From a virus, in IMG/VR virus record IMGVR_UViG_3300030380_002811, positions 1 through 43,595 of that record: DNA of 43,595 nucleotides; one strand, given 5' to 3'. The notes under the pieces were generated by a model. The model worked only from the letters and a program-made list of their open reading frames with translations, did no database searches and had not been told where the DNA came from. Position numbers and translations under genes: made by a program. This document shows, piece after piece, positions 15,889 to 33,907 of the stretch. The stretch's first letter is position 1. Every line of letters begins with the position of its first letter.

Positions 15889-16748
15889 GTATATTTGGAG
15901 GAGGTGGAGGTGGTTCATCAGGACCCTCAACTACTACACAATACATAAGAGAAGCACCTGGTATAGAAGAAAGAAAACTTGGTTTAATGGATGTGGCAGC
16001 AAGTCTTGCTAAAACACCAACTAATATTCCTACTATGCAAGTAGCAGGTTTAGGTAATCTAGAACAACAAGGTATAACAGCATCTGGAGTCACAGGTGTT
16101 GGTCAACCAACTGTTGGTTCTGCAGTATCTGGAGTACAAGGAGCAATGGCTCCGATAGGTGCTCAACAAATTAGTCAATATTTAAATCCTTATCAATCAT
16201 ATGTAACTGGTGAAATTGCTAAACAAGGACAAATGATGCAAAATCAATTAGGAGCTCAAGCAGTTAATGCAGGAGCTTTTGGTGGTGGTAGAGAAGGTGT
16301 TCAACAAGCAGAATTACAAAAAGGAACTTTAGAAGCAATGGGTCAAGCACAGGCACAAGGTTTTCAAACTGCATTAGGTGCAGCTCAACAACAGCAACAA
16401 GTAGGATTACAAGGTGGTCAATTATTAGGTCAGCTAGGTTCACAACAACAAGCAATGGCTCAAGGCGATATAAATCAATTAATGGCTGCAGGTGGCTTAC
16501 AAAGACAGTTAGCACAACAAGCATTAGATGCACAAAGGCAAACAGCATTACAAAGAGAGTACGAGCCTTATCAAAGAGCAGAGTTTTTAAAAAATATTTA
16601 TGCTGCAGGACCTACATCTCAGTCTTCATTAACACAGACCACAACACCAGGTGGTGGAAATCCTTTAGCACAAGCTGCAGGAGCTGGACTTGGAGCTTAT
16701 GCCACATATTCACTATTAAATAAAAATCAAGCACCAGCTAAGGTTTAA
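15885..16748 (+). CDS. Gln/Ala/Gly-rich internal virion-type protein
   Basis: This 287-residue protein starts with a polyglycine patch (MSIFGGGGGGSSGPSTTTQY). It continues into a long Gln/Ala/Gly-rich helical part (QQQQQVGLQGGQLLGQLGSQ; LMAAGGLQRQLAQQALDAQR). The motif N-P-Y-Q-S-Y-V-T-G-E-I ... Q-x-G-A-Q-A-V-N-A-G-A-F-G-G-G-R-E is typical of marine podovirus proteins coded before the large internal cores. The final residues are a small hydrophobic segment (GLGAYATYSLL). Likely an ejection or core protein; no enzyme motif. A frame on the other strand (16264-16548) is a composition shadow. Confidence 0.6.
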   Translation: MSIFGGGGGGSSGPSTTTQYIREAPGIEERKLGLMDVAASLAKTPTNIPTMQVAGLGNLEQQGITASGVTGVGQPTVGSAVSGVQGAMAPIGAQQISQYLNPYQSYVTGEIAKQGQMMQNQLGAQAVNAGAFGGGREGVQQAELQKGTLEAMGQAQAQGFQTALGAAQQQQQVGLQGGQLLGQLGSQQQAMAQGDINQLMAAGGLQRQLAQQALDAQRQTALQREYEPYQRAEFLKNIYAAGPTSQSSLTQTTTPGGGNPLAQAAGAGLGAYATYSLLNKNQAPAKV

Positions 16749-23777: not shown

Positions 23778-24293
23778 ATGTTTTTTATTGAAGATAAAGA
23801 TTTTTTAAATGATACTCAAAAAAAATATATAGATGAGTTATTATTATATGAAAACATGTCTTTTAAGTTAGCAACTCAAGCTGCAGAAGTTGGAGATAAC
23901 GGGTTTCATTTTATTAATCATATATTAAAACTTGAAGAAAAAGAAAAAAATACTTTAAAACAACATGAAGAATTAATTAATATCTTTAGATTTTTTTTAC
24001 AAAAAAATAAAATAGAATTAAATAATCTTTTTAGAGTTGCTATTAATATAACTTTTAATAATGGATTTGTTTACAAATGTCCTATACACACTGACCATGA
24101 TTTTGAATACAAGCAAGTTATACTTTATTTAAACGATGCTGTTGGAGATACAATTATTTGTAATAAAAATAAAGAACCAGTTATAATATCAAAACCAGAA
24201 AAGTATAAAGCTATTGTTTTTGATAAACAACCTCACTATCATTACTTTCCTAATTATGGGTTACGAGCTATAGCTGTATTTACATTTAATTAA
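23778..24293 (+). CDS. 2OG-Fe(II) oxygenase-like protein
   Basis: This 171-residue protein has YKCPIHTDHDFEYKQVILYL (H104-x-D106), LNDAVGDTIICN, a P-E-K-Y-K-A-I-V-F-D strand, then QPHYHYFPNYGLRAIAVFTF with H153 or H155 and R163 as the 2-oxoglutarate contact. The set is complete for the Fe(II)/2-oxoglutarate superfamily and resembles short cyanophage members. It ends tail to tail with the minus-strand helicase, overlapping by eight bases. No ribosome site is obvious. Confidence 0.75.
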   Translation: MFFIEDKDFLNDTQKKYIDELLLYENMSFKLATQAAEVGDNGFHFINHILKLEEKEKNTLKQHEELINIFRFFLQKNKIELNNLFRVAINITFNNGFVYKCPIHTDHDFEYKQVILYLNDAVGDTIICNKNKEPVIISKPEKYKAIVFDKQPHYHYFPNYGLRAIAVFTFN

Positions 24294-25719
24294 GCCATTC
24301 TTTAAACTCATCACCTAAAGTTTTAATAGCTAGTTTATTTTTATTAGATAGAGAAGAAATAATTCTTTCATCAATCGTACCTTTGCATATTAAATCTGTA
24401 TATAACACTCTATGTTTTAATCCTGATCTATGTGCTCTATCTTCTGATTGTCTTCTATGTTCAAAGTTAAAACTATTAGAAAAATAAATAATATTTTTAG
24501 CCTCTGTAAGAGTAAGACCAAAACCACCTGTTGCAGGATTACCTACAAAGAATCTACAAGTATCATCTTCTTGAAACTTTTTTACTGCTTCAGCACGTTT
24601 AAGAGTATCTACAGCTCCATAGTTAGATACAACAGAATACACTCCATACTTTTCCTGTAAAAATTTTATTATAGATTCTATATTATATATGTAGTTGGCC
24701 CATATAATTACCTTACCTTCTGATTCTTCTATGATATCTGATAGTGCATGTAGTTTAGGATTCTTAAACTCTTTAAGTTCTCCATCATTTGTTTTGACAA
24801 AACCATTACAGACCTGGTGTAATTTTATTATCTCAGTTAGTTTATTATTATATGACACAGCTTCATCTTCTATAATAGCTATTGCAGCTATTCTTAATCT
24901 TTCATAAAAATCTTTCTGTTCATCATTCATATCTATATATCGTTTAGAGTATAGTTTAGGTGGTAGATCTAGACATTCATCTTTAGTTACTCTGTAAGAG
25001 AACTTACTTAATTTATCTTCTAATTCATCAAGATGTACATAGTATTTAGGTATCTCTGTGTATTTACCATTACCAAGATCTAATCTGTGAGTTACACAAT
25101 ATCTGTTTCTAAAAGTAAAATAAGAAGAAAATCCTAGATGTGTACCATCTAAAAAATTACATTGTGTATATAAATCTAACGGTGATTTAGTTACTGGTGA
25201 ACCTGTAAGTATTCTTTTGTATTTAGAATAATCAGATAATTTTAAAACGTTTCTAGTACGAATAGCTTTGTGATTTTTGATTGTAGTAGACTCATCTATG
25301 ATAGTAAGGTTTTCTTTGTGGTTGTATAAAAATTCTGTTGCACCTTTTATACCTCTACTAGTAGAAAGTGCTTCTATGTTCATACAAAATATTTTTAATT
25401 TACCTTTAGGATCTAATGATTTTTTTAATTGTTTAGGTTTATCTATGTTCCAAGAGTATATTTCATAGTCAACATCTGGAGACATGTGTTTATTTATTTC
25501 ATCAAAAGCCCATACAGTATATACTGATTTTGGTGCTAGTATTAATACTCCGGTAATATTTTTATTAATTCTTAAAAGGCCTATATTATCTACAGCAACT
25601 TTTGTTTTGCCTGTACCCATTTCCATAAAAAAAGCGTATGTGGGTTTATCCCATGCTTTAATAAGGCAAGTTTTCTGGTGTTCGTATGGTTGTGTTTTAA
25701 AGTTAAACAAGTTCAACAT
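24286..25719 (-). CDS. SNF2-type superfamily 2 helicase
   Basis: This protein of about 477 residues has YEHQK (Q-like), FFMEMGTGKTKVA (Walker A), LILAPKSVYTVW (motif Ia), TIIDESTTIKNH (motif II as D-E-S-T), RILTGSPVTKSPLDLY (motif III), and C-terminal NPATGGFGLTLTEAKNIIYF and RRQSEDRAHRSG (motif VI). These place it with SNF2/RapA-like phage helicases involved in replication or recombination. I chose ATG 25719 over the upstream TTG at 25731 because a minus-strand promoter (25757 down to 25730) would start transcription at about 25722. There is no Shine-Dalgarno sequence, consistent with a leaderless mRNA. It is the only large minus-strand gene. Confidence 0.9.
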   Translation of the reverse strand: MLNLFNFKTQPYEHQKTCLIKAWDKPTYAFFMEMGTGKTKVAVDNIGLLRINKNITGVLILAPKSVYTVWAFDEINKHMSPDVDYEIYSWNIDKPKQLKKSLDPKGKLKIFCMNIEALSTSRGIKGATEFLYNHKENLTIIDESTTIKNHKAIRTRNVLKLSDYSKYKRILTGSPVTKSPLDLYTQCNFLDGTHLGFSSYFTFRNRYCVTHRLDLGNGKYTEIPKYYVHLDELEDKLSKFSYRVTKDECLDLPPKLYSKRYIDMNDEQKDFYERLRIAAIAIIEDEAVSYNNKLTEIIKLHQVCNGFVKTNDGELKEFKNPKLHALSDIIEESEGKVIIWANYIYNIESIIKFLQEKYGVYSVVSNYGAVDTLKRAEAVKKFQEDDTCRFFVGNPATGGFGLTLTEAKNIIYFSNSFNFEHRRQSEDRAHRSGLKHRVLYTDLICKGTIDERIISSLSNKNKLAIKTLGDEFKEWLN

Positions 25720-25724
25720 AATGA

Positions 25725-25752
25725 TTGACAATATATTTGATTTAGGTATAAA
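25725..25752 (+). promoter_or_regulatory. Promoter for the SSB/primase operon
   Basis: TTGACA (25725-25730) and TATAAA (25747-25752) are separated by 16 bases. Transcription would start at about 25759 and give a short leader with an AAAAAGGAGG ribosome site before ATG 25782. This is the strongest sigma70-like promoter in the middle of the window. Confidence 0.7.
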
Positions 25753-25757
25753 GTCAA
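25730..25757 (-). promoter_or_regulatory. Opposing promoter for the minus-strand helicase
   Basis: Read on the minus strand, TTGACT (25757-25752) and TATATT (25735-25730) are 16 bases apart, with a predicted start at about 25722, three bases before the helicase ATG. It lies within the same 33 bases as the plus-strand promoter, so the two polymerase sites are mutually exclusive. Confidence 0.6.
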
Positions 25758-25781
25758 CTTATTAAAAAGGAGGTCATATTT

Positions 25782-26324
25782 ATGAACCTAGAACAACTAA
25801 CAAAGATAAATATAAAAACTAACGAAGTAACAGAAATATCAGAGGCTTGTAAAAAGCTAACTTCCCAAAATAAAACAGTCGAAGAAACAAAAGATCTTCT
25901 TAAAGAACAAGAAGAAGAAGCTAGACGTTTATCTGAAGAAGTGATACCTACTCTAATGCAACAAGCAGGAGTCTCATCAATAACACTTGATGATGGTACT
26001 TCGGTTCAAGTTTCACCTTACTACTATGCGAAGATCCAAGAGGCAAATAAAGACGAAGCCTTCCGATGGTTGCGTGAGAACAACCACGGGGATTTGATAA
26101 AAAATAATTTATCAGTTTCGTTTGGTAAGGGGGAAGATGCTGATGCAGTGAAACTAAAAGAATCACTGGAGAAGCAAGGTCTTGTCGTAGACCAAAAACA
26201 GGACGTTCATTGGCAAACTCTTCGAGGATTTGTAAAAGAACAAATTGAGAAGAATAAAACTATACCATCTGAAACTTTTGGATTGTATATTGCTAACCGA
26301 ACTAAAATAAAAACTAACAACTAA
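25782..26324 (+). CDS. Coiled-coil hypothetical protein of the replication operon
   Basis: This 180-residue protein has a long charged coiled coil in residues 15-60 (EISEACKKLTSQNKTVEETK, LLKEQEEEARRLSEEVIPTL). A small mixed domain follows (SSITLDDGTSVQVSPYYYAK), then a DEAFRWLRENNHGDLIKNN segment and a basic end. It is first in the operon that encodes the SSB candidate, primase and helicase, with a near-perfect ribosome site. This gene pair (coiled coil then SSB candidate) looks conserved in marine phages. I do not know its function; a replication scaffold or SSB partner is possible. Confidence 0.7.
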   Translation: MNLEQLTKINIKTNEVTEISEACKKLTSQNKTVEETKDLLKEQEEEARRLSEEVIPTLMQQAGVSSITLDDGTSVQVSPYYYAKIQEANKDEAFRWLRENNHGDLIKNNLSVSFGKGEDADAVKLKESLEKQGLVVDQKQDVHWQTLRGFVKEQIEKNKTIPSETFGLYIANRTKIKTNN

Positions 26325-26342: not shown

Positions 26343-27137
26343 ATGGCACAAGAAAAAGCCAACGCAGTTGCAACTAAGGCAACAGCACAAGCACCTATGG
26401 TTTCAAACATGGAACAGTTCGCAGGTGCAGGAGCGGAGAACATCACGTCAAAAGATGTGTCACTTCCGTTCTTAAAAATACTTACTAATAATTCTCCTCA
26501 CGTCACTCAAGGTGATGCGAAGTTTATTAGTGAGGCAAGACCAGGTATGGTTATTAATTCTGTTTTAAATAAGCTCTATGATGGGCAAACAGGATTTAAA
26601 GCTATTCCTTGTTTCTTTAAATTCGAATATGTTGAATGGGCTGATAGGGGTACACAGAATTCTGTTGCACCTGTTAATTCATATCCTGCTGATTCGGATA
26701 TAATGACTAAAACAACTAGGGGTGACGATCGGAAAGATAGATTACCAAATGGTAATTATATCGAGCCAACTCACTATCATTATGTTTTGATGGTAGATGA
26801 GAATGATATGGCAACCGATACTGCTGTCATAGTTATGAAAGCTACTCAGGCTAAAAAGTCTAAGAAGTGGAATTCTATGATGCTCTCTCAAAGGAGAAAA
26901 GGCAGTAAAGGTATGTTCCAACCACCTACATGGTCTCAAATTTATACTTTGAGAACTGTGTTAGAAAAGAACTCTTTGGGTTCTTGGTTTGGTTGGGAAG
27001 TTGACCATAACAAAGACATTCCTAATGATGCACTCATGAATGCTGCGATGGCATTTTATGATACGTGTAAAAAAGGTAATGCCAAGGTCAACCTTACCGA
27101 GGAACAACAAGCACAAACTGGCACAGCACCATTTTAA
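26343..27137 (+). CDS. Single-stranded DNA-binding protein candidate
   Basis: The 264 residues start with an Ala/Gln/Lys-rich arm, then LPFLKILTNNSPHVTQGDAK, ARPGMVINSVLNKLYDGQTG, FKAIPCFFKFEYVEWADRGT and MFQPPTWSQIYTLRTVLEKN. The protein resembles phage proteins annotated as SSB or recombination-associated ssDNA-binding proteins. The end, EEQQAQTGTAPF, finishes in Pro-Phe, as do SSB tails that recruit partners, though it is less acidic. It is encoded directly before the primase, overlapping its ATG. No enzyme motif is seen. Confidence 0.6.
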   Translation: MAQEKANAVATKATAQAPMVSNMEQFAGAGAENITSKDVSLPFLKILTNNSPHVTQGDAKFISEARPGMVINSVLNKLYDGQTGFKAIPCFFKFEYVEWADRGTQNSVAPVNSYPADSDIMTKTTRGDDRKDRLPNGNYIEPTHYHYVLMVDENDMATDTAVIVMKATQAKKSKKWNSMMLSQRRKGSKGMFQPPTWSQIYTLRTVLEKNSLGSWFGWEVDHNKDIPNDALMNAAMAFYDTCKKGNAKVNLTEEQQAQTGTAPF

Positions 27138-28684
27138 TGAGTTCACTAAATTTTTTTAGTAAACTTTTTGGTGGCTTAACGTCAGCATATGGTACTTACG
27201 AGCTCTCCGGAGCTCGTAGGTCCGATGGTAAAGCTGAAGGTAGAGCATTAACAAAAAAAGCAGAAGTCACTTTAGAACTATTTGCTAAACATCTTAAAGG
27301 AGAATTGTCTTTAGGTATCGTGCCTATTATGAAAGACAACAACTGCAAATGGGGTTGTATAGATGTTGATGAGTATGATGGATTTAATCCACTTCATGTA
27401 ATCAAAAAAATTAGAGATTTAAAACTACCACTCTTTCCTTACAGATCAAAGTCTGGAGGACTACATATATTTTTACATATCAATGGTGTGATACCAGCAA
27501 CTGATATGATCGATAAACTTACTAAGTTAGCTAGTAGATTAGGTTTAGCTGATTGTGAAATATTTCCTAAACAAAGAACAATAAATGTTGAGTTAGGTAC
27601 AATAGGTAATTGGTTAAACTTACCATATCAAAATGCTCACTTGACTACACGTCATGCAATAGACGACACCGGCCAATCAATACCCATAGAAAAACTAGAA
27701 GAGGCAGTGCAACCTTTTTTAATTACACCAGAAGATTTTTATAAAATAGAATTAGATGAGTTGAATGATGATGACAAAGAGTTTGCTGATTATCCACCTT
27801 GTGTACAGAATTTTGTTAAGCATGCAGTTAAGCCAGGGGATGGTAGAAACGAGGCATTATTTAATGTTGGTGTTTGTATGCTTAAAAAACACGGTAAGGA
27901 TGGCGCTTGGGAAGATGAATTAGGTGACATAAATAAATCATGGGGTGATGATAGAATAGATCCAAAAGAATTAAAGATAACTGTTATTAAAAGTTTAAGT
28001 GGAGACAAAGATTATAATTACAAATGCAGTTCTCCTATTGCTAAAAAATACTGTGATCAAGCTGCATGTGTAAAAAGAAAACTTGGTATTGGTAAAAAAG
28101 ATTACAACTTTCATGTAGATTCTTTTCAAAAGATAAGCACTAAACCACCTAAATATATTCTAACTATAGATAAGAAACCTGTAAGACTAACGGGTCAACA
28201 ACTTTGTCAGCAACAATTATTAAAAACAGAACTATTTGATTGTGATATTGTATGGAAAACTATGAAGACAGAAGAGTTTGGCTTATGGTTAAACTATCTT
28301 AAATCTATTCAAACTGCTGTAGAAGGTTATGACTTTACTGATGATGATAAAGATGAATTTGATTATCTATTTAGAAACTTTATAGATGATAGTCAGCTTG
28401 CGGATGATATTACACAGACACAAACAGATTATGTTCATGAAGAAGATGGTCATTTGTTTTTTAGAGCAGAACTATTTAAAAAATTTTTAAAGAAAGACGG
28501 AAACAACTTAAAACCTTTTGAAGTAAAAGAATTATTAATTGACAATGGAGCGGAGTACATAAGACAACATAAAGAATACAAAGGTCGATTGTGGAAGATA
28601 CCTAAACCAACTAAGATTGATGTTAAAGAACGTAACGTCAGCTTCAACCAACAGAGTGCACCTTTTGACCCAGATTCACAATAA
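27137..28684 (+). CDS. Archaeo-eukaryotic-type primase (AEP)
   Basis: This 515-residue protein carries the AEP signature: CKWGCIDVDEYDG (D76 and D78), FPYRSKSGGLHIFLHING (S-x-G-x-H with H110) and CEIFPKQ (E141 as third acidic ligand). After the catalytic domain, PPCVQNFVKHAVKPGDGRNE resembles a PriCT-type segment, and C297, C306 and C311 in KCSSPIAKKYCDQAAC suggest a metal site. Residues 320-515 are an extra domain of unknown role. It should make primers for the family A polymerase, and the SF1 helicase gene follows. It contains a GC-rich palindrome (27195-27220) and an ACACCGGCCA word (27666-27675). Confidence 0.85.
   Translation: MSSLNFFSKLFGGLTSAYGTYELSGARRSDGKAEGRALTKKAEVTLELFAKHLKGELSLGIVPIMKDNNCKWGCIDVDEYDGFNPLHVIKKIRDLKLPLFPYRSKSGGLHIFLHINGVIPATDMIDKLTKLASRLGLADCEIFPKQRTINVELGTIGNWLNLPYQNAHLTTRHAIDDTGQSIPIEKLEEAVQPFLITPEDFYKIELDELNDDDKEFADYPPCVQNFVKHAVKPGDGRNEALFNVGVCMLKKHGKDGAWEDELGDINKSWGDDRIDPKELKITVIKSLSGDKDYNYKCSSPIAKKYCDQAACVKRKLGIGKKDYNFHVDSFQKISTKPPKYILTIDKKPVRLTGQQLCQQQLLKTELFDCDIVWKTMKTEEFGLWLNYLKSIQTAVEGYDFTDDDKDEFDYLFRNFIDDSQLADDITQTQTDYVHEEDGHLFFRAELFKKFLKKDGNNLKPFEVKELLIDNGAEYIRQHKEYKGRLWKIPKPTKIDVKERNVSFNQQSAPFDPDSQ
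27195..27220. repeat. GC-rich palindrome inside the primase gene
   Basis: TACGAGCTC (27197-27205) and GAGCTCGTA (27210-27218) are perfect inverted repeats around TCCG, extended by a T-G and a C-G pair to an 11-pair stem. It lies in codons for Y-E-L-S-G-A-R-R and stands out in an AT-rich gene. Confidence 0.7.
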
Positions 28685-30242
28685 AACATTTAAGATATTT
28701 GGTCCTCCAGGTACAGGAAAGACTACTAGATTAATTAAAATAGTAGAAAAACATTTAAGGTTAGGTGTGAAACCACATGAAATGGTTTATGTTTCCTTTA
28801 CAAATAAAGCTATTGATGAAGCTGTAGATAGAGTATTGAAAAAGTTTAAACAATATAATGAAGATGATTTTAATAATTTTAGAACTATACATTCTTTCTG
28901 CAAAAAAGAATTGTCATCATTACCTGTACTTGATCCTAGAGTAGACATGTTAAAATTTCACACTGATTGGGGAACTATTAGTGCTAACTTTACAGAAGAA
29001 GATGCTAACCACAAAGTATTTAATAATTGGTCCTTGAGAGTATATGATAAGGCTAGAAATATGTTGGTAGATCCTATCTCTTTATACAAAGCAGAACCAA
29101 TTAAAAAAGTAAGATTACAACAATTTACCGATATAATAAGAAATTATATAAAATTTAAAAAAGATAATAAAATGGATTTTACTGATATGGTAGAGAAGTA
29201 TGTAGAGGAAGTTAGTCCACCATCTTATAAAGTGTTTATAGTAGATGAAGCTCAAGATCTAACACCACTGCAATGGCAGTTTGTAGATAAGGTTGCAGCT
29301 CAAGCTAATAGAATTTATTTAGCTGGGGATGATGACCAGGCTATTTATGAATGGAACGGTGCTAGAGTTAGAAGTTTTTTAGACTTTGCAGGTAAAATAT
29401 TTATATTAAATAAATCATACAGATTAAATGAAACTATACTTAACTTCTCTAAAGAAATACTTAAATTTATACCTGAAAGGCAACACAAAGAATTTACCTC
29501 AACTAATAAATCAGAAGGTTTTATTAAGACCTACAGTAGATTTAACGAGGTTCCTTTTGATTCTTTAGAAGGGACTTGGTTTGTGTTAGGCAGAGTTGGA
29601 GATAATGTCGATGAGCTAAAAGAATATGCTAGGCAAAAAGGCTTATACTTCCAAGATATGCGAGGAAATAAATCGTTCAATATAAACAAATGGAATGCCA
29701 TAAATCATTGGTTAGCTTTACAAAAAGGTGAGAGCATAACTAAAGAACAGGTAGGGGTTTTGTATGATTTTATTGATCAAATTAAAAAAGGATGGAGAAA
29801 AATTGACAACAAAGCCTGGTCAAATATTCACCCTAATCAACCTTTAGATCTAGAGTTCTTAAAAAAGAATTGTGGGTTAGAAACTACCGAGAGCGACTGG
29901 TGGAAAGTCTTAAACAGAAAATTTACTGTGCGAGACTTGGATTATTTTGAAAGTATGTTAAAAAGGAATATTCAATTTAATGAAAAAGCAAAAATAATAA
30001 TTGACACAATCCACTCAGTTAAAGGTGGGGAGGCAGACAACGTACTAATATATGAAAAAGCTAATTGGCCATCTAATTTTTCAACCAAGAACTTCAAAGA
30101 CAAGATGGCTGAAGCGAGGGTTTGGTATACTGGTATTACACGGTCTAAGACATCCCTACATATACTCTCTACTAACCATACATATTTTTTTCCTTTGGGG
30201 CGTCTTGCATCTAATTTCAACCGGAGAACTATGAATGTATGA
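28656..30242 (+). CDS. UvrD/Rep-like superfamily 1 helicase
   Basis: All main SF1 motifs are present: IFGPPGTGKTTRL (Walker A, residues 16-23 from the chosen start), VSFTNKAIDEA (Ia), FIVDEAQDLTPLQW (II, D-E-A-Q), LAGDDDQAIYEWNGA (III), LNKSYRLNETI (IV), IIDTIHSVKGGEADNV (V) and VWYTGITRSKTSL (VI). It lacks the long 1B/2B insertions, so it is a compact, possibly 3'-5' or Pif1/RecD-like phage enzyme. I prefer GTG 28656, which overlaps the primase by 29 bases; ATG 28620 or TTG 28617 and 28665 are alternatives. It acts in replication or recombination with the primase. Confidence 0.85.
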   Translation: MHLLTQIHNKTFKIFGPPGTGKTTRLIKIVEKHLRLGVKPHEMVYVSFTNKAIDEAVDRVLKKFKQYNEDDFNNFRTIHSFCKKELSSLPVLDPRVDMLKFHTDWGTISANFTEEDANHKVFNNWSLRVYDKARNMLVDPISLYKAEPIKKVRLQQFTDIIRNYIKFKKDNKMDFTDMVEKYVEEVSPPSYKVFIVDEAQDLTPLQWQFVDKVAAQANRIYLAGDDDQAIYEWNGARVRSFLDFAGKIFILNKSYRLNETILNFSKEILKFIPERQHKEFTSTNKSEGFIKTYSRFNEVPFDSLEGTWFVLGRVGDNVDELKEYARQKGLYFQDMRGNKSFNINKWNAINHWLALQKGESITKEQVGVLYDFIDQIKKGWRKIDNKAWSNIHPNQPLDLEFLKKNCGLETTESDWWKVLNRKFTVRDLDYFESMLKRNIQFNEKAKIIIDTIHSVKGGEADNVLIYEKANWPSNFSTKNFKDKMAEARVWYTGITRSKTSLHILSTNHTYFFPLGRLASNFNRRTMNV

Positions 30243-31759: not shown

Positions 31760-31907
31760 ATGCGAACATAGTAAGTGTAGAAGAAACGCCATCGTTGTTG
31801 AAAATAAAAAATTTTATTGTGCAGATTGTTATTTGTTTGCAAAAGGAATTAATTTACGTAAAGTAAAATCAATACACGATACAAATAATAGTCAAAGAAT
31901 ACATTAA
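31743..31907 (+). CDS. Small zinc-ribbon-like protein (54 aa)
   Basis: This short frame begins at ATG 31743 inside the previous gene and ends at TAA 31905-31907, overlapping the polymerase ATG. The product is MKKKIRCEHSKCRRNAIVVE followed by N-K-K-F-Y-C-A-D-C-Y. C7, C12, C26 and C29 form a plausible four-cysteine zinc knuckle, and the rest is basic. Start/stop coupling on both sides supports translation. It may bind nucleic acid or assist the polymerase. Confidence 0.65.
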   Translation: MKKKIRCEHSKCRRNAIVVENKKFYCADCYLFAKGINLRKVKSIHDTNNSQRIH

Positions 31908-33907
31908 TGACAACTGAATTAGTTTTTAATCAAACAGAATCTGATTGGAAAAGGCCAGAGAGTTACCCAGACTTATCTGATAGATCTATTATAGCTGTAG
32001 ACTTAGAGACTAGAGATCCTAACATCAAAACTAAAGGACCAGGGTGGGCTACTAAAGAGGGTGAAGTAGTTGGAATAGCTGTAGCTGCAGATGGTTTTAA
32101 AGGTTACTTTCCCATTGGACATGAAGCTGGTGGTAACATGGATAAGAATATGACTTTGAAATGGTACAAAGAATTAATGGAAAATGGTGTGGATAAAGTT
32201 TGTCACAATGCTTCTTATGATATTGGTTGGACTAGATCTTTAGGTATTAAACCTGTAGGTAAAGTTTACGATACGATGATAGCTGGTGCATTAATTAATG
32301 AAGATAGATTTAGTTATTCTTTAAATGCATTATCATTTGATTATTTAGGAGAAGTAAAATCAGAAGCACAACTAAAAGAGAAAGCAGAAGAGTGGGGCCT
32401 TGATGCTAAAGCAGATATGTGGAGACTACCTGCAGGTTATGTAGGTCCTTATGCAGAACAAGATGCTGAACTTACATTAAAACTTTGGAATAGATTTAAA
32501 ATAGAAATACAACAACAAAACTTATCTAATATATTTAGTCTAGAAACTGAACTGCAACCTATCTTAATTGAAATGAGAGAGCATGGAATTAAAGTTGATG
32601 TCAGTAAAGCAGATTCATTAAAGAAAAATTTTATACAAGAAGAAAATAAAAGATTAAAACAAATAAAAGACATGAGTGGCCATGATGTAGAGATATGGGC
32701 AGCAGTAAGTGTGGCTAAAGCATTTGATGCATTAAAGATTCCATACGAAAGAACTGCAAAGACTAAAGCTCCGAGCTTTACAACCAATTGGTTGCACAAC
32801 TGTCCTCACCCATTAGCTAAACTTATTAGAGAAACTAGAGAGATGAATAAGTTTCACTCTACATTTATTGATTCAATATTAAGATACGAGCATAAAGGTA
32901 GAATCCATGCAGAAATAAATCAATTAAAATCAGATTCTGGAGGCACTGCTACAGGTAGATTATCTATGAGTAACCCTAATTTACAGCAGATTCCAGCTAG
33001 AAATAAGGAGTTTGGTAAACATATTAGGGCCCTTTTTTTACCTGATGAGGGTAAAAAGTGGGGTAGCTTCGATTATAGCCAACAAGAGCCTAGATTGGTG
33101 GTACACTATGCATCTAGCGTTGATCAGGGTTTTGAGGGCTCCTATGAGCTTTTAAAGGCCTATGAAAACGATGATGCAGACTTTCACCAGGTTGTAGCAG
33201 AAATGGCTGATATACCTAGATCTCAGGCAAAAACCATCAATTTAGGCATGTTTTATGGTATGGGAAAAGCTAAATTATCTGCAGAATTAGGTATAGATAT
33301 TGAACAGGCTAAAGCTATTTTAAATGCCTATAACGAAAGGGTTCCTTTTGTTAAAATGTTATCTAATAGATGTATGACTACAGCTGATAAGAAAGGTTGT
33401 GTTGTTACTATTAAAGGAAGACATTGTAGATTTGATAGATGGGAACCTAAGACTTTTGGTATTCATAAATCTATGACTAGAACTGAAGCTGAAAGTAAAT
33501 ACGAAAGAGGTTCAATTAAAAGAGCCATGACTTATAAGGCATTAAATAGATTGATACAGGGATCAGCAGCAGATCAGACTAAACAAGCTATGATTAACTG
33601 TTACAACACCGGCCACCGGCCACTACTACAAATACATGACGAGCTTTGTTTTAATATTAGTAAAGATTCCGACATAGAAGAAATAAAAAATCAAATGGAA
33701 CATTGTCTAAGCTACATAATGGCCTCTAAACTAGATGATCTAGCATTAGGTAAATGTCCTTATTGTGATACAGTTACTACTTTCATCCCTACAAAAAAAC
33801 CAACTATTTATATTTGTGATTATTGTGAAAGCAAAGTTAGACAACATGTAAATGGTAAAGTGCATTGGTATAAATTTAGTGAAGTACCTTTAGGTAAATT
33901 TGATTAA
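31907..33907 (+). CDS. polA: DNA polymerase I family (PolA) with 3'-5' exonuclease
   Basis: This 666-residue protein has an N-terminal 3'-5' exonuclease: IIAVDLETRDPN (D32 and E34), VCHNASYDIGWT (Exo II) and YAEQDAELTLKLW (Exo III). The polymerase has motif A in KWGSFDYSQQEPRLVVHYAS, motif B in SQAKTINLGMFYGMGKAK and motif C in LLQIHDELCFN. The residue matching E. coli Phe762 is Leu446. After the polymerase fold, C617, C620, C637 and C640 (CPYC and CDYC) form an unusual C-terminal zinc ribbon. No 5'-3' exonuclease domain is present, as is usual in phages. It contains a double ACCGGCCA word at 33608-33622. Confidence 0.95.
   Translation: MTTELVFNQTESDWKRPESYPDLSDRSIIAVDLETRDPNIKTKGPGWATKEGEVVGIAVAADGFKGYFPIGHEAGGNMDKNMTLKWYKELMENGVDKVCHNASYDIGWTRSLGIKPVGKVYDTMIAGALINEDRFSYSLNALSFDYLGEVKSEAQLKEKAEEWGLDAKADMWRLPAGYVGPYAEQDAELTLKLWNRFKIEIQQQNLSNIFSLETELQPILIEMREHGIKVDVSKADSLKKNFIQEENKRLKQIKDMSGHDVEIWAAVSVAKAFDALKIPYERTAKTKAPSFTTNWLHNCPHPLAKLIRETREMNKFHSTFIDSILRYEHKGRIHAEINQLKSDSGGTATGRLSMSNPNLQQIPARNKEFGKHIRALFLPDEGKKWGSFDYSQQEPRLVVHYASSVDQGFEGSYELLKAYENDDADFHQVVAEMADIPRSQAKTINLGMFYGMGKAKLSAELGIDIEQAKAILNAYNERVPFVKMLSNRCMTTADKKGCVVTIKGRHCRFDRWEPKTFGIHKSMTRTEAESKYERGSIKRAMTYKALNRLIQGSAADQTKQAMINCYNTGHRPLLQIHDELCFNISKDSDIEEIKNQMEHCLSYIMASKLDDLALGKCPYCDTVTTFIPTKKPTIYICDYCESKVRQHVNGKVHWYKFSEVPLGKFD

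Follow-up and report, generated by a model that had tools for sequence, protein, structure and literature searches.

Overlapping divergent core promoters within palindromic DNA are found in E. coli at bioA/bioBFCD and argE/argCBH, where the repressors are BirA and ArgR. The bidirectional promoters described in bacteria and archaea by the Grainger and Wade groups are organized around one symmetric, shared -10 element, with transcription starts 7–25 bp apart and modes at 10, 18 and 23 bp (PMC12825309, PMC10268837). In published tests, most E. coli bidirectional promoters that share a -10 fired too weakly for the two directions to compete, except where one of them was activated (PMC12825309). A search of open-licence papers found no report of the interlocked geometry described below.

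The sequence analysed here (the window) is a 43,595-nucleotide stretch of viral DNA, IMG/VR record IMGVR_UViG_3300030380_002811, and it belongs to an HTVC023P-type pelagiphage. The SAR11 hosts are the ocean's commonest bacteria. The helicase region of the window matches Pelagibacter phages HTVC023P and HTVC027P and phage 023Pt_psg01, all of which show the same divergent order, with the helicase on the left and a replication operon containing a primase on the right; in HTVC023P, a helicase and a polymerase are annotated in this operon too. HTVC027P has no RNA polymerase of its own and depends on that of the host (PMC12753301).

At the point of divergence in the window, positions 25725–25757 read TTGACAATATATTTGATTTAGGTATAAAGTCAA, which has the form TTGAC-N23-GTCAA and holds two promoters, one per strand. 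The original prediction had placed TTGACA-16-TATAAA on the plus strand and TTGACT-16-TATATT on the minus strand, and both were found exact to the base. Judged against sigma70-type hexamers, the two promoters score 11/12 and 10/12 matches, each with a 16-nt spacer. The ends of the element are TTGAC/GTCAA mirror images, and each -10 box shares a single base with the opposite -35 box, at positions 25730 and 25752. The features of the locus are as follows.

25725 to 25757, no strand: interlocked bidirectional promoter element, 33 bp, conserved in close relatives, 12 distinct versions
25725 to 25730, plus strand: rightward (replication operon) -35 box TTGACA; TTGAC invariant in the clade
25747 to 25752, plus strand: rightward -10 box TATAAA, 16-nt spacer; TATA invariant in the clade
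25752 to 25757, minus strand: leftward (helicase) -35 box TTGACT; GTCAA invariant in the clade
25730 to 25735, minus strand: leftward -10 box TATATT, 16-nt spacer; 4–5 of 6 matches in 12/12 clade elements, at a 16- or 17-nt spacer
25723, minus strand: helicase mRNA start predicted from geometry, about +7 from the -10 box, leader of about 4 nt
25759, plus strand: replication operon start predicted from geometry, leader of about 23 nt
24286 to 25719, minus strand: SNF2/DEAD-type helicase, 477 aa, predicted near-leaderless, no Shine-Dalgarno (SD) sequence (PF00176, E=4.8e-24; phrog_62, E=6.5e-115)
25767 to 25773, plus strand: SD sequence AAGGAGG of the right-hand gene, read from the sequence
25782 to 26324, plus strand: DUF7307 protein (Pam3 gp33-like), gene 1 of the replication operon, ATG at 25782 (PF23984, E=3.9e-33)
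26343 to 27137, plus strand: Pam3_Gp34-like protein (PF23977, E=7.7e-61)
27137 to 28684, plus strand: archaeo-eukaryotic-type (AEP) primase (PF22548, phrog_21866)
28617 to 30242, plus strand: UvrD-type helicase (PF00580, phrog_1967)
31907 to 33907, plus strand: DNA polymerase I-type polymerase, PolA (phrog_17, E=2.1e-112)

The predicted starts are 36 bp apart. The helicase ATG at 25719 lies 5 nt from the element, a gap that is kept in most of the clade. The comparative evidence supports the earlier claim that the helicase mRNA, which lacks a ribosome site, would be near-leaderless. The right-hand gene does have the ribosome site attributed to it. The operon that follows had been thought to open with SSB; its first two genes match DUF7307 and Pam3_Gp34 instead, and a ferredoxin-like gene lies between the UvrD-type helicase and PolA. 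The rightward TATAAA has no T at -7, and it thus fits alphaproteobacterial promoters, most of which also lack that T (PMC8407463).

A palindromic pair of this kind is expected to occur by chance in a sequence of this size: for TTGAC-N18..34-GTCAA, 0.86 pairs are expected per window. The lone window sequence is therefore no proof, and its significance comes from its position at a divergent junction and from conservation in relatives. A chance origin was rejected on this conservation and on the length-specific enrichment described below, single-window statistics being insufficient by themselves. Between positions 16000 and 35900 of the window, promoter-like sites are rarer than in shuffled sequences (66 vs 90.7, about 2.8 sd below), which suggests selection against spurious promoters in this part of the window. 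Terminator-like sites in the same interval are above shuffles (14 vs 6.8).

Conservation was assessed in 68 loci fetched by helicase protein. TTGAC-N23-GTCAA was observed at the same place and with the same spacing in every close relative that has the region (84–100% identity). Across the 12 distinct elements of the clade, TTGAC, GTCAA and the right-hand TATA are invariant, and the two -10 boxes score 4.92 and 4.42 of 6, shuffles giving about 3.1. Identity averages 34% over the middle 11 positions vs 84% over the hexamer positions. Invariant arms and good -10 boxes around a scrambled middle are the sequence pattern expected from selection on both promoters. This two-sided conservation is part of the comparative evidence that the two promoters are real and interlocked, as had been proposed.

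The expectation that relatives would keep the two-sided spacing held for all close relatives and broke down in distant helicase homologues, in which group B has an offset overlap and group E a palindromic variant, and no clear promoter pair was seen at the group C helicase junction. HTVC023P and HTVC027P also use other promoter arrangements at this junction, with an overlapping layout in HTVC027P. These other geometries indicate that the exact 33-bp design is clade-specific. Another interlocked layout was seen upstream of the helicase in L062 and L063, where the palindrome CCCATAATTATATACTTG...CAAGTGTATAATAATGGG carries TATAAT on both strands and overlapping -35 regions.

A related 34-bp form is found in other marine phages. 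It reads TTGACA-17-TATAWT on both strands, with the canonical N17 spacer, and -10 matches peak at N16 in 33-bp elements and at N17 in 34-bp elements on both strands. In a motif scan of viral contigs that required the -10 boxes and allowed 31–37 bp, 83/91 among the matches listed were exactly 34 bp. A second scan of viral contigs required only TTGAC-N15..34-GTCAA-N-ATGAAA, leaving the -10 boxes and the far side unselected, and gave 22 matches at 34 bp, against 1–6 for every other length that occurred. On the far side, a divergent ATG lay within 8 nt in 15/22 of these matches at 34 bp vs 0/58 elsewhere, and the unselected -10 boxes scored 4.35 and 3.65 at 34 bp vs 1.86 and 1.74 elsewhere (p ~1e-7 and 5e-6, with kinship among the sequences ignored).

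The 34-bp form occurs mainly in two contexts, the helicase junction of other clades (12 distinct elements) and a divergent pair that includes the terminase small subunit (45 distinct). The helicase elements show near-perfect dyad symmetry, with 11-bp arms TTGACAATATA/TATATTGTCAA, and the terminase-side elements have a partly conserved middle (AAGGTAAC..TCC) that the core promoters do not need. The arms-only pattern was present in 18/20 virus records, a count that gives no frequency since most records were picked for carrying it; 2/20 have two copies, and G012 combines a helicase and a terminase copy. More 34-bp elements (TTGACATTCTATCCCA...), whose spacer contains TATCCCA, were seen in other gene contexts in L150, L176, L256 and L297.

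To obtain terminase loci free of DNA selection, 76 terminase-small-subunit (terS) loci were fetched by protein. The element was found in 74 of them and was always 34 bp; in 56/76 it lies within 120 nt, and in 18 of the other 20 it lies 87–89 nt upstream. Eighteen terS loci (L497–L549) have a small gene inserted before terS, with its own ATG 2–4 nt from the element. The inserted gene, present in about a quarter of loci, encodes a very small, hydrophobic protein that starts MNF... The ATGs at terS loci are mostly 1–4 nt outside both ends of the element, about 7–10 nt past each -10 box, with exceptions on the far side. Because this is the distance expected of a transcription start, both sides of the 34-bp loci are probably leaderless. 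The far-side gene opposite terS is highly variable, encoding unrelated short proteins, several of which start MKD (L105, L106, L109, L113, L127, L131 and L147), giving the impression that small neighbouring genes are swapped around an element that stays in place as the junction.

Across clades, the arm spacing takes the values 23, 24, 27 and 28. The 37-bp variants, of which 023Pt_psg01 carries one, have their best leftward -10 at N19 (5.57/6); at N17 a weaker leftward box scores 4.0, and their rightward -10 is poor. The proposal that these variants simply keep the N17 spacing was thus only half borne out, and no decisive weight was placed on it. In HTVC027P, a degenerate 33-bp version, TTGAT-N23-ATCAA, lies between gp31 and gp30 (record positions 15947–15979; L223:2303–2335), and both annotated starts are 2–3 nt outside it. 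The gp30 product is reported to be ArfA and to be high at 3 h and again at 12–15 h (PMC12753301).

The core pattern was found in only 1/147 SAR11-family genomes. This 34-bp match (L391:6223–6256) is flanked by a leaderless ORF of 33 codons and by a 445-aa gene that gave no Pfam match; genes for a cytosine methylase, an HNH protein and a Z1-domain helicase lie beside it, and the region is possibly a mobile or defence island. Bacterial genomes at large gave 80 matches, nearly all one-sided, with a far-side ATG in 3/80; of these three, at least one is on a viral contig. The rarity of the SAR11 match and the one-sidedness of the bacterial matches make the element look like a phage design and not a host habit. 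A host origin was rejected on the single match among 147 SAR11-family genomes and on the methylase and HNH genes of that contig. A SAR11 promoter consensus was also sought in 343 kb of host DNA, where 13 usable TTGAC sites proved uninformative. Two contigs filed as bacterial, L429 (Rhodobacteraceae REDSEA-S34_B6) and L364 (Actinomycetota RS345), carry the phage terminase-type element and are for that reason probably mis-binned viral contigs. In the bacterial contigs L413 and L418, a long palindrome, TTGACTATATTAG...CTAATATATTGTCAA, stands just before a start codon and looks like a regulator's operator.

Taken together, these observations suggest, with a probability of roughly three in four, that the 33-bp element serves host sigma70 as a compact promoter in both directions, with polymerase binding that would be exclusive and initiations that would be divided between the helicase and the replication operon. 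We infer the start sites, the use of host sigma70 and the mutual exclusion from DNA sequence. The host housekeeping (sigma70-type) RNA polymerase would bind the 33 bp in either orientation and, once bound, would cover both core promoters. With two complete core promoters packed into one stretch of 33–34 bp, only one polymerase could be accommodated at a time. Leftward initiation would give a near-leaderless helicase mRNA, and rightward initiation an SD-led mRNA of the replication operon. The 34-bp version, in which both spacers are 17 nt long, would work in the same way and would usually have a leaderless gene on either side.

An expression switch had been suggested for this locus but is not supported. 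Among the scanned window ORFs no regulator was recognised, and competition between RNA polymerases alone has no memory, which argues for a divider; the tested E. coli cases, moreover, are mostly weak. A splitter that would set the ratio of the two transcripts is thus more likely than a switch. Both sides of the window element are near consensus, which makes polymerase competition more plausible here than at the E. coli promoters.

The palindrome could also be mainly an operator, on which a dimeric phage or host regulator would bind the TTGAC...GTCAA half-sites over one or two promoters in the manner of BirA. The near-perfect dyad symmetry is consistent with this, as are an arm spacing that is fixed within each clade, the two copies in G012 and the partly conserved middle on the terminase side. 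We nevertheless consider it unlikely, since the arm spacing shifts between clades by non-helical steps that a rigid dimer would not tolerate, the arms correspond to sigma70 boxes, correctly spaced on either strand, the start codons are placed as expected of promoter-initiated transcripts, and the window ORFs that were scanned offered no candidate regulator. An operator superimposed on both promoters is possible.

If only one direction were functional, the boxes on the opposite strand would be decorative or due to chance. About one TTGAC..GTCAA pair is indeed expected by chance in the window, and many bacterial matches are one-sided with a chance GTCAA (far-side ATG in 3/80). The two-sided conservation in the clade, the double start codons at 34-bp loci and the enrichment at one length make this reading very improbable. 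The palindrome might instead serve something other than transcription at the point of divergence, for instance as an origin of replication or a site of recombination. Such a role would account for the adjoining replication genes and for the varying far-side genes beside terS, but it is scarcely credible given that the element also occurs at the terminase locus, that the arms consist of promoter hexamers spaced as in a promoter and that start codons are locked to the element's ends.

The compact-promoter reading extends to a broader proposal, for which we judge the chances evenly balanced: that elements of 33–34 bp in which two full consensus promoters interlock, with leaderless genes at both ends, form a distinct promoter class, widespread in HTVC023P-type and related marine phages, which would fix the ratio of divergent transcripts by polymerase competition and act as a modular junction for gene exchange. 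If this is true, neighbouring genes could be exchanged at the junction without loss of expression. The element recurs in the SAR11 phage group that is the most abundant one known, and it would make a very small two-way expression part that needs no ribosome site. Whether polymerase competition sets phage gene ratios becomes a testable question in cultured HTVC027P.

Compared with known systems, the element is familiar in principle, as a case of overlapping divergent promoters; what appears new is its geometry and the way leaderless genes recur beside it. Like the bidirectional promoters of the Grainger and Wade groups, it is a short, pseudo-symmetric piece of DNA, often between divergent genes, that would produce divergent RNAs with one polymerase orientation at a time. 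Unlike them, it interlocks two full -35/-10 pairs, with the -10 boxes at opposite ends and near-perfect -35 boxes, and its predicted starts are about 36–40 bp apart, outside the 7–25 bp range of promoters with a shared -10. It also differs from the cellular bioA/bioBFCD and argE/argCBH regions in that the phage element is tightly spaced, recurs at different loci and in many phages, and often has genes beside it that appear leaderless. Until now, a shared -10 has been the defining feature of bidirectional promoters in prokaryotes, and the element described here would represent a second geometry.
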